In this document: one piece after another, positions 2,929 to 55,188 of the stretch
Numbering within the stretch: position 1 is the first letter of the stretch
How the letters are laid out: the number at the start of each line of letters is the position of its first letter
From: Alkalibacterium putridalgicola
Lineage (GTDB): Bacteria > Bacillota > Bacilli > Lactobacillales > Carnobacteriaceae_A
Assembly (NCBI RefSeq): GCF_900109825.1
Contig: NZ_FOBL01000003.1
Coordinates: 1 to 64,000 of the forward strand
Direction: 5' to 3'
DNA: 64,000 nt
Notes under the pieces: model-generated
Database searches by the model: none
Told to the model about the DNA's origin: nothing
What the model saw: only the letters and a program-made list of their open reading frames with translations
Translations under genes and position numbers: made by a program

Positions 2929-3714
2929 ATGTCAGATTACGAAATACCTAAAATATGGGAATGGAACAAAGATGAAAAGAATCAATTTGGTAACCAGCCA
3001 GTCGCAGGCAGTCGTTTTGAACAGACACTTCCGGTCGGCGAACATCCACTGCAGGTCTATTCATTAGGCACACCGAACGGACAGAAAGTCGCCATCATGC
3101 TGGAAGAGCTGAGTGAAGCCGGGGTCATGGAAGCTCGATACGACTTGTATAAAATCGATATTACAAAAGGTGATCAGTTCGGGAGTGACTTTGTCAGCAT
3201 CAACCCTAACTCTAAAATACCTGCCATGATGGATCATTCAACCGATGAACCGATCCGTGTCTTTGAATCAGCCAACATCCTGTTATACTTGGCAGAAAAG
3301 TTCGACCAGTTCATCCCGACTTCTCTAGCTGAGAAAACGGAAATGATGAACTGGCTGTTCTGGCAGATCGGTGCTGCGCCTTACGTCGGCGGCGGGTTCG
3401 GCCACTTCTACTCTTATGCACCCTTTGCACAGGAGTATCCGATCAACCGGTTCACAATGGAAACGAAGCGCCAGCTGGATCTTCTGGATAGACACTTAGC
3501 TGACAAGGACTACATCAACGGTGACGAATATACGATCGCGGACATGGCGATCTGGCCTTGGTACGGTCGTCTGGTTCAAGGTTCATTGTACGGCGATGCC
3601 GCTGAATTCTTAAAAGCCAACGAATATACGAACTTAAAAAAATGGGCTGACCGCATCAGTGAACGACCTGCTGTGAAACGTGCACTGGAATTAGAATACA
3701 AAGCTATCAAATAG
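2929..3714 (+). CDS. yghU: YghU-type glutathione S-transferase / disulfide-bond oxidoreductase
   Basis: The 261-residue protein matches the nu-class GST YghU. It has an extended N-terminus with KIWEWNKDEKNQFGNQP, the TPNGQKV active-site loop (48-54), the thioredoxin-fold NPNSKIPA (92-99), the glutathione-contact ESAN (113-116), and an all-helical C-terminal domain ending in a short LELEYKAIK tail. Family members reduce disulfides using two glutathiones. It is shorter than E. coli YghU (about 288), mainly at the ends. Presence in a Gram-positive implies a glutathione or substitute thiol supply, which nothing in the window provides. GAGGAG precedes the ATG. Confidence 0.88.
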   Translation: MSDYEIPKIWEWNKDEKNQFGNQPVAGSRFEQTLPVGEHPLQVYSLGTPNGQKVAIMLEELSEAGVMEARYDLYKIDITKGDQFGSDFVSINPNSKIPAMMDHSTDEPIRVFESANILLYLAEKFDQFIPTSLAEKTEMMNWLFWQIGAAPYVGGGFGHFYSYAPFAQEYPINRFTMETKRQLDLLDRHLADKDYINGDEYTIADMAIWPWYGRLVQGSLYGDAAEFLKANEYTNLKKWADRISERPAVKRALELEYKAIK

Positions 3715-3732: not shown

Positions 3733-3772
3733 AAAAACCTCGAAGTGTCCAAAATGACATTTCGAGGTTTTT
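3733..3772. terminator. Bidirectional terminator between convergent genes
   Basis: AAAACCTCGAAGTGTC and GACATTTCGAGGTTTT pair as a near-perfect stem with a six-base loop, flanked by A and T runs, so it can act on both strands. It sits between yghU (+) and the EamA gene (-). Confidence 0.85.
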
Positions 3773-3812
3773 ATAGTGTAGAAAAGTATAAGCTTTTCTG
3801 CTTTCGATAATA

Positions 3813-3940
3813 TTGTCTAGCAGAACGAACCTGTCTCCGTGCGAAAAAAGAGGAATGTACCCATTGCGCGCAAGCTGCTCATTCAGGGCACATTCCCTAT
3901 TTTTCGCAGGAGCCAAGGCAGGTTCGTTCTACTTTTCTTA
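3813..3940 (-). repeat. Structured palindromic element, copy A
   Basis: A 128-bp imperfect palindrome lies directly 3' of the EamA-family gene. Outer arms of 12 bp are perfect (3822-3833 with 3919-3930). Inner stems are TGCGAAAAA/TTTTTCGCA (3840-3848 with 3900-3908), GGAATGT/ACATTCC (3852-3858 with 3890-3896) and CCC/GGG. The apical loop contains ATTGCGC and TGCTCATTC. A second copy at 53874-53999 keeps the loop and the flanks (TTGTCYAGCA on the left, CTTTTCTTA on the right), while its stems carry compensating changes. It could be a structured RNA in a 3' UTR or a palindromic mobile repeat. Strand is given as that of the adjacent upstream gene. Confidence 0.75.
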
Positions 3941-3946
3941 TCAGCT

Positions 3947-4858
3947 TTAAATATTGATCAAAATGAGTGCAATGATCGTCATAGCAATGGCCAGCTGGTT
4001 CTTAGGAGCCAGTCTTTCTCTGTAAATGAGCAGGCCGCCTATATTGATCAGGACGATGCTTCCGGCACTGTATATGGGGAAAGCCACTGAAGTCTTCAGT
4101 GTATCGAGTGACAGGATCAGAAAGTATGATGAGAATAGATTCGGAATCCCCACTGCAAAACCCGTCAGGATATCACTCAGCTTGACCTTCGCCTTTTTAT
4201 TCACAGTGTATGAGACACTGATCAAAAAGGCGACAAAGAATATCGTGAACAAGAAAACGTCTTTATAGTCATTCAAGGCATACTTCTGATAGATCTTGTT
4301 GGAAAATTCTGCCATGCCTCCAAAGATAAACAGAAGCAGCACGGTCGGTTTGAAATCGAATGTCTTGATCGACTTTTTAGACAGGTTGATCACAATGATC
4401 GATACTAAGGATAGTAGGATCCCTACCCACTGAACAGACGTCGGAAATTCCCTCCAGATAAGTATTGAGAAAATCATTGGTATAAGTATCCCTAACTTTG
4501 CGACCGTCCCGGATATCCCTACCCCACTGTCTCTGACACTTTTCTGATAGTAGACGAACGAGAGGAAAAAGAATATGCCGGCCACTGCGCCGATCAGGAT
4601 CCCCCAGATGATACTGGAATACGGGGACAAGATGTGCTGATCGTTTTCCATAAACAATGCGACATCATCTATAAAAGGCATCTCACGGACTACGCCGTCC
4701 AATAGTCTCCTATATACGATCATGATCAAACTGGTGACAAAGGCGATGAAGTAATTGGCACTTGTAATCACATAACGATTTGTATCTGTATTTTCTGTGT
4801 ATTTAAAAATAAGCGCGATCGATGCACTGCATAAAATGGATAGAAATAAATAAAACAT
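3947..4858 (-). CDS. EamA/DMT-family transporter
   Basis: A 303-residue integral membrane protein with about ten hydrophobic helices in two EamA-like halves, separated near residue 165-175 by a short basic loop (NLSKKSIKTFDFK). The last helices carry the IYSAGSIVLINIGGLLIYRERL segment typical of drug/metabolite transporters, which export small metabolites using ion gradients. The substrate is unknown. A 25-30 residue polar loop after the second helix (LDGVVREMPFIDDVALFMEN) is longer than usual. A palindromic element (copy A) lies right after its stop codon. AGGAGG precedes the start. Confidence 0.8.
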   Translation of the reverse strand: MFYLFLSILCSASIALIFKYTENTDTNRYVITSANYFIAFVTSLIMIVYRRLLDGVVREMPFIDDVALFMENDQHILSPYSSIIWGILIGAVAGIFFFLSFVYYQKSVRDSGVGISGTVAKLGILIPMIFSILIWREFPTSVQWVGILLSLVSIIVINLSKKSIKTFDFKPTVLLLFIFGGMAEFSNKIYQKYALNDYKDVFLFTIFFVAFLISVSYTVNKKAKVKLSDILTGFAVGIPNLFSSYFLILSLDTLKTSVAFPIYSAGSIVLINIGGLLIYRERLAPKNQLAIAMTIIALILINI

Positions 4859-40308: not shown

Positions 40309-40314
40309 AGTGTA

Positions 40315-40680
40315 TGGAGTTGAGGGGAGTCGAACCCCTGTCCAGACATATCGACACTCGAGTATCTACGTTCATAGTTTTACTATTTGAAAGTTCGCTC
40401 AGCATCAGCCGTAAAACAGGCATCATGCGTCGCTAGTCTGATGATCTCTTCTTAGTCTTACAGACGGAAAGACTAAGCGTATCCCACTTATTATAGGACC
40501 CGATACCGAGCACATGGGCGATGCCGGTCGGATCACGCTAAGCTGTTATTACGCAGCTAAAGCGTAGTTGTTGTTATTATTGTTTGCAGTTATATTTAAC
40601 TGTGACGTTGGTACGCAGTCTCGTCACCTGCGGAACGCAACCCAAGCTCAATCTATGCCTGTCGAATCCGTAACAACCCC
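40315..40680 (-). ncRNA. ssrA: Transfer-messenger RNA (tmRNA)
   Basis: tmRNA rescues stalled ribosomes together with SmpB. On the minus strand the 5' end begins GGGGTTGTTACGGATTCGACAG, matching the family start. The tag frame reads ANNNNNYALAA then TAA. The 3' part has GGTTCGACTCCCC, and the acceptor stem pairs GGGGTTG with CAACTCC. The CCA is not encoded; the last base is the discriminator A. A -10 TATAAT lies at 40717-40722, about 37 bp before the 5' end, so a short leader is removed by processing. Confidence 0.96.
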
Positions 40681-47647: not shown

Positions 47648-47908
47648 AAAAAAATCCTCCTTCAGACTCTCTTCCATTTTACCTTAAATTGTGACAATTT
47701 TATACCGAAACACAAGTTAAGGTATAAATCCCTTTACCAGAATCATTCAGAAATAAAGCTGTTATTGTTTGTAGATTTCATTGGTTCGATCTGCGACCTG
47801 CTTAAGAATATCTTATGTTTGAATCATCCGATACCGGACACTTGTCGGCGAGCCCACAGCGATTTTTGTTTCAACTAGCCGATAGAGCTTTGTTTTCGAC
47901 CTATTCAC

Positions 47909-53824: not shown

Positions 53825-53849
53825 GAGGATCCATACGTTCAGGATCCTC
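53825..53849. other. Hairpin in the pgk-tpiA gap
   Basis: GAGGATCC (53825-53832) and GGATCCTC (53842-53849) form an 8-bp perfect stem with a nine-base loop. No T run follows, so it is not a normal terminator; it could be an RNA processing or stability element. Confidence 0.5.
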
Positions 53850-53873
53850 GGTACAATTGTATTGCTTTTCTTG

Positions 53874-53999
53874 TTGTCCAGCAATTCAAGCCTGATTCCC
53901 GATGAAAAAAGATAAATTTCCCCATTGCGCAGTATGCTCATTCGGGGCAAATTTCCTATTTTTCATGGGAATCAAACCGGGCTTGTTTTGCTTTTCTTA
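53874..53999 (-). repeat. Structured palindromic element, copy B
   Basis: Second copy of the element at 3813-3940, here inside the glycolytic operon directly after the pgk stop. The stems are continuous over about 16 bp: GATTCCC (53894-53900) pairs with GGGAATC (53967-53973), ATGAAAAA with TTTTTCAT, AAATTT with AAATTT and CCCC with GGGG; outer CAAGCC pairs with GGCTTG. The apical loop keeps ATTGCGC and TGCTCATTC, and the flanks keep TTGTCCAGCA and CTTTTCTTA. Compared with copy A, paired bases change together. Confidence 0.75.
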
Positions 54000-54000
54000 A

Positions 54001-55188
54001 TTATTTATCTGAAATAGCTGCGATTCCTGGAAGTTCTTTACCTTCAAGGTATTCCAGTGATGCGCCGCCACCTGTTGAGATGTGGCTGAAGTCATCTTCG
54101 AAGCCTAACTGCTGGGCTGCTGTAGCTGAGTCGCCACCACCGATGATCGTTGTTGCTTCATCTAAGTTAGCTAAAGCTTCACAGACCTTGATCGTGCCTT
54201 GAGCAAAGTTTTCCATCTCGAATACGCCCATAGGACCGTTCCAGACGACAGTTTTTGCGCCTTTCAGTTCTTTCTCGAAAAGCTCAACAGTTTTCGGTCC
54301 GATATCCAGACCCATTTTACCTTCAGGGATGTTGTCGCCGACTACTTCAGTTGGCACATCATTTGAAAATTCTGAAGCCACGACTGAATCAACAGGTAAA
54401 ACAAGCTTGTCGCCGGCTTTTTCCATCAATTCCTTAGCCAAGTCCACTTTGTCTTCTTCTAATAAAGAGTTACCAATATCTTTACCTAAGGCTTTATAGA
54501 AGGTATAAGTCATTCCGCCACCGACAAGGACTTTGTCAGCTTTAGAGATCAGGTTTTCGATAACACCGATTTTGTCTGAAACTTTTGCTCCGCCTAAGAT
54601 AGCAACGAAGGGACGTTTTGGTTCGTCGACTGCGCCACCGATGAAGTTGATTTCTTTTTCTACTAAGAAACCAGCAGCTGATTCAACGTTTGAAGCGATC
54701 CCTACGTTAGATGCATGCGAACGGTGAGCTGTACCGAAGGCATCATTGACGAATACATCGCCCAGGCTTGCCCAGTACTTGCCTAATTCAGGGTCGTTTT
54801 TGCTTTCTTTCTTCCCGTCGACATCTTCGAAACGTGTGTTTTCAAACATCAGGATTTCGCCGTCTTTCAAATTACTTACAGCATTCTCAAGCTCTTCGTC
54901 GCGTGTTTCTGCCACGAATTTTACGTCTTTGCCTAGTAATTCGCTTAAACGTTCAGAAACAGGTTTCATTGACAAGCCTGCTTTATCTTCTTCCGTTTTC
55001 ACACGTCCCAGATGAGAAAAGACGATCGCTTTTCCACCTTGTTCAAGAACGTATTCCAAAGTTGGTAATGCGGCCTGAATACGGTTGTCGTTAGTGATTT
55101 TACCGTCTTTCATCGGTACGTTGAAGTCTGCACGTACTAATACTTTTTTGCCTTTCAAGTCAAGGTCTTTAACAGTTTTCTTTGCCAT
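54001..55188 (-). CDS. pgk: Phosphoglycerate kinase
   Basis: The 395-residue enzyme transfers phosphate from 1,3-bisphosphoglycerate to ADP. It has [54 protein letters not shown] and, late, [11 protein letters not shown]. The ATG of MAKKTVKDL was chosen to fit the family N-terminus; an ATG four codons upstream is closer to AAAGGA. Within the CggR-controlled operon. Confidence 0.96.

Follow-up and report, generated by a model that had tools for sequence, protein, structure and literature searches.

Covarying intergenic hairpins of Alkalibacterium putridalgicola as probable non-autonomous relatives of terminator-targeting IS91-type elements

The two hairpins of the window and their relatives

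Two intergenic hairpins of Alkalibacterium putridalgicola, 50 kb apart, raise the question of why their stems should change in pairs around a fixed loop. The original prediction, made on a stretch of 64,000 nucleotides (contig NZ_FOBL01000003.1, positions 1 to 64,000; hereafter the window), proposed that either the structure of an RNA is under selection or the folded DNA serves a transposase as its substrate. When the sequence was re-read, both hairpins were located where they had been placed, and the shared loop (ATTGCGC..TGCTCATTC), the flanks and the stem changes were as described. Moreover, each copy did directly follow the end of a minus-strand gene, with the stop codon of EamA at 3947 (copy A) and that of pgk at 54001 (copy B). 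Each of them formed one long hairpin, with a predicted folding energy of −68.6 kcal/mol for copy A (3774-3940; z −7.6) and −47.2 kcal/mol for copy B (53874-53999; z −5.7), and none of 200 dinucleotide shuffles folded as well in either case.

Copy A was found between a plus-strand GST gene (2929-3714, assigned by Pfam) and the minus-strand EamA gene, and it reached further left than originally given. To the right of the GST gene, its intrinsic terminator (3738-3772, plus strand) consisted of the hairpin CCTCGAAGTGTC..GACATTTCGAGG and a T-tract (3768-3772), was scored as a terminator with −21.4 kcal/mol and would be the insertion target of copy A. A matrix was made from 10 left ends, 18 nt long, of IS91-type elements (IS91 family, HUH Y2), excluding the small elements. 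Among the 127,964 positions of both strands of the window, its top score (14.1 bits) fell on position 3774, behind the GST terminator, and the extent of copy A was therefore set to 3774-3939, while the runner-up (13.8 bits, position 47739, minus strand) had no T-tract. Thus delimited, with boundaries also drawn from copies in the genomes G265 and G213 and from IS91-type elements, the putative non-autonomous IS91-type element A measures 166 bp on the plus strand. It comprises the left end TAGTGTAGAAAAGTATAA (3774-3791), with the motif of IS91-type left ends; the long hairpin (3819-3933), in which the fold and the covariation delimit a conserved internal loop, a one-sided bulge and the apical loop; and the right end TACTTTTCTT (3930-3939), which is the foot of the hairpin, is conserved as CTTTTCTT in an alignment of 39 rows and resembles IS91-type right ends. 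Copy A has its left end, the right end CTTTTCTT and the terminator target in common with an autonomous IS91-type element.

Copy B (53874-53998, plus strand), defined by its sequence, its fold, the left-end scan and the loci of relatives, separates pgk from tpiA, two minus-strand genes, and is antisense to both. No left end was detected for this copy, the best matrix score being −2.6 bits. It followed directly on a remnant right end, GCTTTTCTT (53864-53872, plus strand), which was recognized by comparison with tandem copies as belonging to an older copy and had gone unnoticed in the original prediction. Further left, a small hairpin GAGGATCC..GGATCCTC (53825-53849, plus strand) is probably what is left of an earlier tandem copy that has collapsed, judging from the intact or larger tandem copies at the pgk-tpiA site of relatives.

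To describe the family, 38 of the 44 collected rows and a truncated duplicate of L001, placed as row 1, were aligned and turned into a covariance model. Six rows that were truncated, broken or duplicate were excluded (L049:585, L043, L027, L028:1453, L020 and L030). The early seed set had consisted of 30 seeds passed by a motif filter, and the loci of the early alignment had been chosen by hand. In the 39 rows, 19 of 29 stem pairs varied on both sides, bearing out the covariation with a fixed loop. Paired cells made up 96.1%, whereas shuffles gave 79.4% and slid partners 53.4% at most; for the covariation score the corresponding values were 0.434, 0.131 and at most 0.150. Both measures are favoured by a structure predicted on the same alignment. 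Furthermore, the mismatched internal loop (AGAT/CCTA) and the one-sided bulge were retained across genera. Rfam returned no match at the gathering score in the window except the tmRNA gene (40312-40680, minus strand; RF00023), and none on 12 further loci, in line with the statement that the shape had no named family; loosening the Rfam cut-off produced no fitting family either.

A total of 83 out of 395 Lactobacillales genomes, in 22 of 80 genera, matched the model at an E-value of 1e-4, a count that scores at most eight candidates per genome and takes in weak matches without inspection; with a best E-value ≤1e-10, 51 genomes in 12 genera were retained. In the window's own family, 18 of 27 genomes matched at an E-value of 0.01, five of them, all of genus g9, weakly, and the loop pattern was present in 13 of the 27; contigs of Trichococcus, Lacticigenium, Atopococcus and Alkalibacterium were among the pattern matches listed. 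The g9 matches (L250, L251 and L254; E-values of 2e-5 to 3e-4) had similar flanks in several genomes and are perhaps an unrelated conserved element. The 2.6-Mb draft genome of A. putridalgicola (G000) had at least eight places with the element, five identified by the covariance model and three more by the core pattern. One of its elements (C50:13451-13624, minus strand; L263/L249) lay directly upstream of a predicted mnmE and could form its 5′ leader, and the loop pattern also matched a different array of hairpin repeats of about 50 nt (GTGAGTACTGCCATTGCGC..) at C15:7404 (L021).

Outside the chromosomes, 11 Enterococcus faecium plasmids (L013 and L014 among them) presented one copy each of the type found in genus g58, to which G213 and G265 belong; the copy of L014 was near type I restriction genes. 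On plasmids of E. casseliflavus and E. faecalis (L373 and L374), the match stopped inside the element. For plasmids without the element, only partial matches were obtained. In viral contigs, the loop pattern occurred in 38 stretches, with no family member among those listed or passing the pairing filter, and the long-form core pattern was absent. Two queries had no counterpart in phage records, and L300 had neither a plasmid nor a phage match.

The outer stem and both feet of the window copies were also found in longer relatives (170-230 nt), which have additional branches at the apex, and in one form of about 310 nt in A. putridalgicola; for this reason the 127-bp core looks like an internally deleted form. 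The long-form core pattern was found in 7 of 395 genomes (≤3 mismatches), some of these matches being chance matches in coding DNA. Two other loci (L260 in G350 and L261 in G314) had a hairpin, CACTACGGTCGCT.CGCTCCCCTAGTACT.TTCATCA, resembling the core of the 310-nt form, which at L261 appeared twice, the two near each other and in a related form. In the Lacticigenium genome G021, units of about 127 bp without left ends were arranged in head-to-tail arrays (L028, L041, L044, L049 and L050). In the array of L028, unit 1 seemed to join the left arm of unit 3 to the right arm of unit 2, a hybrid that seems to be a sign of recombination within arrays. The same genome had a second, diverged subfamily (L246, L247 and L248), with ends GAGTTGC../..ACTCTCT, a GC-rich apex and several copies about 120 or 240 bp apart.

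Ends, insertion sites and size classes of the small elements

In genus g58, whose recent and nearly identical copies were used to fix the ends, the left end TAGACTAGGGGATTATAAGTTCAGCC appeared 136 times in G213 and 51 times in G265 (≤3 mismatches). The elements of this genus had a left end of the form TA(G)..TAGG..TATAA and a right end made of the hairpin foot followed by TTTTCTT. In the 40 copies read in G265, the start of the element followed a T-tract, in nearly all cases with a hairpin before it, and the element was on the same strand as that terminator. A terminator-like sequence, that is, a hairpin and a T-tract, was present directly upstream of 44 out of 47 G265 sites, compared to 150 out of 3000 random positions in the flanks of 16 G213/G265 loci; at the three failing sites the T-tract was present and the hairpin insufficient. 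Moreover, three orthologous sites in G213 were free of the element. The junction was readable at two of them (L365 and L360), the terminator region of L337 being too diverged, and in both the element had entered directly after the single purine that follows the T-tract, with no visible duplication or loss.

The same ends delimited several internal sizes. Among the 40 copies, 29 were of about 207 bp, four of 157 bp and four of 67 bp, and three were without the right part. Eight further copies belonged to the 157-bp class, and since these came through model matches, the class counts of G265 do not represent a random sample. Copies also stood head to tail, with the T-rich right end of one directly before the left end of the next. 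A total of 55 right ends were found in G265, seven of them without a left end. Each of the seven was preceded by a scored terminator; in five the copy began exactly at the internal T6, and in the other two one base beyond it. Such left-truncated copies fit one-ended transposition as described for IS91/IS801, and a deletion between two T-tracts would give the same product. A wider scan covered 88 small elements selected by a right-end filter, at least one of which is a chance match (L099). The left end reached 9 bits in 40 of them, mostly g58-type elements; in other genera it was often unrecognizable, and the tandem units of Lacticigenium and Alkalibacterium had none. The strand of the elements in G265 was polarized, with 17 on the minus and 6 on the plus strand below 1.05 Mb and 26 on the plus and 2 on the minus strand above it, which may only mirror gene orientation.

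These size classes bear on an explanation in which the covariation needs no selection, with template-switch repair keeping the palindromes of old insertions perfect and deletions within the hairpin generating the classes. The 67-bp class, which could arise by deletion between CCAAG repeats, had an identical CCAAG junction at four of 40 loci, and the hybrid unit of the Lacticigenium array is also in agreement with such repair. However, repair would be expected to erase the AGAT/CCTA mismatches and the one-sided bulge, both of which were kept across genera, and we regard this explanation as improbable.

The pgk-tpiA site is part of the case for a cis-acting structured RNA, located in a 3′-UTR or between cistrons and kept by selection on the transcript. 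Such hairpins were present at this site in at least 6 of 12 genomes of the genus (G000, G001, G002, G004, G009 and G010). Compared with the 43 predicted pairs of copy B, five relatives had 22 to 34 pairs unchanged, 4 to 9 compensated and 3 to 10 broken. Together with the strong covariation and the conserved internal loop and bulge, these compensated pairs speak for a role as RNA. On the other hand, the genes that precede the copies are unrelated, and a single genome has as many as 136 left ends; fixed ends enclosed several internal sizes; tandem copies occurred and a relative had element-free sites; and the copy at pgk lies antisense to both of its neighbouring genes. Selection on a transcript is thus an unlikely origin of the family. 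Nevertheless, the presence of the hairpin in at least half of these 12 genomes indicates that some copies outlive their mobility as intergenic hairpins, and as old copies keep the hairpin after insertion, there is room for a secondary RNA role at pgk-tpiA.

IS91-type transposases and mobility of the small elements

An open reading frame of 452 amino acids was found in G213 between two small elements and flanked by the same kind of ends. Its product matched Y2_Tnp (PF04986; 2.4e-39) and Zn_Tnp_IS91 (PF14319; 1.1e-18), and both domains were present in all three transposases scanned. The residues HxH and YxxxY, which we take to be the motifs of these transposases, were invariant in 10 out of 10 aligned proteins, ISVa3 included. 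Identity to the G213 transposase ranged from 54 to 86% for Lactobacillales proteins and was 29% for ISVa3, and more distant relatives are annotated as ‘IS91 family transposase’. Four copies of the transposase element in G213 began with TAGTATAGGGTTTTATAA and ended with CCTCGAG..CTCGAGGTTTTCTT, two of them following the terminator of a gene and the other two a small element. The same design was observed in G001, G002 and G008, of the window's genus, in other genomes, and on plasmids of E. faecium, E. avium, Lacticaseibacillus paracasei and Pediococcus (P. acidilactici).

All 19 IS91-type copies that were scored lay directly behind a terminator, 14 of 14 on chromosomes and plasmids and then 5 of 5, the left ends of the latter having been located with a matrix made from other copies. 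These 19 include short, split or partial transposase genes (L428, L442 and L450), repeats of the same insertion sequence (L432/L435/L437, L439/L440 and L449/L451/L452) and one copy whose target was the right end of a small element (L432). The copies left unscored were L429 (behind a small element), L443 (at the same site as L442), L444 (interrupted), L433, L434 and L436 (fragments), L447 (left end found, flank unread) and L431, a misfit with a shortened transposase gene whose best left-end match fell on a site without a T-tract. Right ends were recognized in 15 of the 19, of which 13 consisted of the hairpin and TTTTCTT and two of the hairpin and TTTTTTT (L424 and L425), and no recognizable right end was found in L427, L449, L450 and L451. 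A target tetranucleotide of the IS91/IS801 type was not found at the scored copies, all 19 presenting a terminator-like sequence and a T-tract instead.

Regarding co-occurrence, Y2_Tnp was detected in 11 of the 395 genomes, small elements in 83 and both in 6. Small elements were present in 6 of 11 genomes with Y2_Tnp, compared to 77 of 384 without it (Fisher P-value of 0.014, with relatedness ignored). At the cut-off used, Y2_Tnp was not found in 77 of the 83 carrier genomes, including the draft genome of A. putridalgicola; the element-rich G021 and G265, which is a single contig with more than 50 copies, had none either; in turn, no small element was found in 5 of the 11 genomes with Y2_Tnp. 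As most carriers are missing this domain, the mobilizer must be absent, lost or different there: either most genomes have lost the source of the transposase or another enzyme can do the same work.

Two other enzymes were considered, and neither reverse transcriptases nor Y1 transposases tracked the elements in the 20 genomes tested for each. Group IIC introns insert behind intrinsic terminators, and a retroelement related to them would account for the type of target, the lack of a visible target duplication, the left truncations and the structured element. Against this, six loci searched against Rfam, long forms among them, matched no group II intron at E-values up to 10. The reverse transcriptase domain RVT_1 was not found in the carriers G003, G014, G021 and G233, whereas it was present in G013 (eight matches) and G019 (six), neither of which matched the model. 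With ends held in common with a DNA transposon as well, a group IIC relative is very hard to sustain. Equally remote is an element of the REP/RAYT or IS200/IS605 kind, moved by a Y1 (single tyrosine) transposase. The hairpin, the absence of a visible target duplication and the logic of a single-stranded substrate would suit it, but Y1_Tnp was not found in the carriers G001, G003, G005 and G021, and the elements with the same ends encode Y2 rather than Y1.

Altogether, copies A and B are very probably non-autonomous, MITE-like members of a mobile family whose ends and target are shared with a terminator-targeting, IS91-type subfamily of Lactobacillales. Of the two readings first proposed, the folded DNA substrate of a transposase is the better supported, given mobility and IS91-type ends and target, and selection on RNA structure is the less favoured. 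On sequence grounds, an IS91-type Y2 transposase probably moves the small elements in trans, which would proceed by rolling-circle transfer of one strand. The hairpin would mark the end by its structure, recognized while the DNA is single-stranded, and the stems could then drift provided that they still pair. Left-truncated copies starting at the internal T6 may result from one-ended transposition. Moreover, the right end itself looks like a terminator, which allows a further copy to insert after an existing one and so explains the tandem copies of g58.

A further step, to which we give an even chance, is that this Y2 HUH clade of Lactobacillales recognizes the intrinsic terminator itself, hairpin and T-tract, and that the hairpin at the element's end serves both as a transposition end in single-stranded DNA and as a transcription terminator in RNA. 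If so, each insertion would leave termination intact and add a landing site. Such a self-renewing safe harbour would have let gene-less derivatives reach more than 100 copies per genome and 12 to 22 of 80 genera, depending on the cut-off.

Comparison with known systems

IS91 elements and their ISCR relatives carry resistance genes, and to our knowledge their known target rules are short sequence motifs. The relatives described here likewise encode Y2_Tnp and Zn_Tnp_IS91 with HxH and YxxxY, as in the IS91 family (IS91, IS801 and ISVa3). For IS801, one study gives the tetranucleotides GAAC, GGAC, CAAG and CGAC as targets and describes truncated derivatives that keep the right end, the fragments counted as mobile being those that start at the target sequence (PMC3189936). 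Truncated copies also keep the right end in the present family. In contrast to IS91 and IS801, the target here is an intrinsic terminator, the element's own right end resembles a terminator and the small elements are gene-less.

The original prediction had named, as an outcome that would speak against it, that the copies prove to be ends of a known transposon or IS, and this is largely what was found, because the small elements are mobile and have ends and target in common with IS91-family insertion sequences; the terminator-targeting part is undescribed in the literature searched. In particular, no description of terminator targeting by IS91 elements was found in the open literature, covered by titles and beginnings of abstracts, with subscription papers mostly outside that coverage. 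The transposase family is known, and the terminator-targeting variant appears new within the literature searched. With a terminator as target, rolling-circle transposition would be linked either to the termination of transcription or to the extrusion of hairpins, in parallel to group IIC introns, which have the same type of target; here, there was no intron match and no link to reverse transcriptase genes. Furthermore, such a target would account for a large group of intergenic, covarying hairpins of lactic acid bacteria, which might otherwise pass for regulatory RNAs.

Among small intergenic structured repeats, one source describes Efa-1 of Enterococcus faecalis, of 163 bp, as a pair of adjacent stem-loops (PMC2267715), and EFAR figures among bacterial MITEs in another (PMC3733652). 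Our guess is that Efa-1 and EFAR are the same repeat. Repeats of the present type may already be known in Enterococcus as EFAR, compared here by description only; both are small intergenic structured repeats, and Efa-1 differs, again by its description, in having two adjacent stem-loops. According to the same sources, BOX and RUP of Streptococcus pneumoniae are also small, interspersed, intergenic and structured (PMC2267715, PMC3733652), and RUP is classed with MITEs having terminal inverted repeats (PMC3733652). Unlike RUP, the termini here are not inverted repeats outside the hairpin.

Finally, Helitrons are not known to duplicate their target. For Helitrons and HelibatN, one study reports a hairpin near the 3′ end as an end signal and large swarms of non-autonomous copies (PMC4778049). 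In contrast to these eukaryotic elements, the family described here is bacterial, has a terminator as its target and contains nearly the whole small element within the hairpin.
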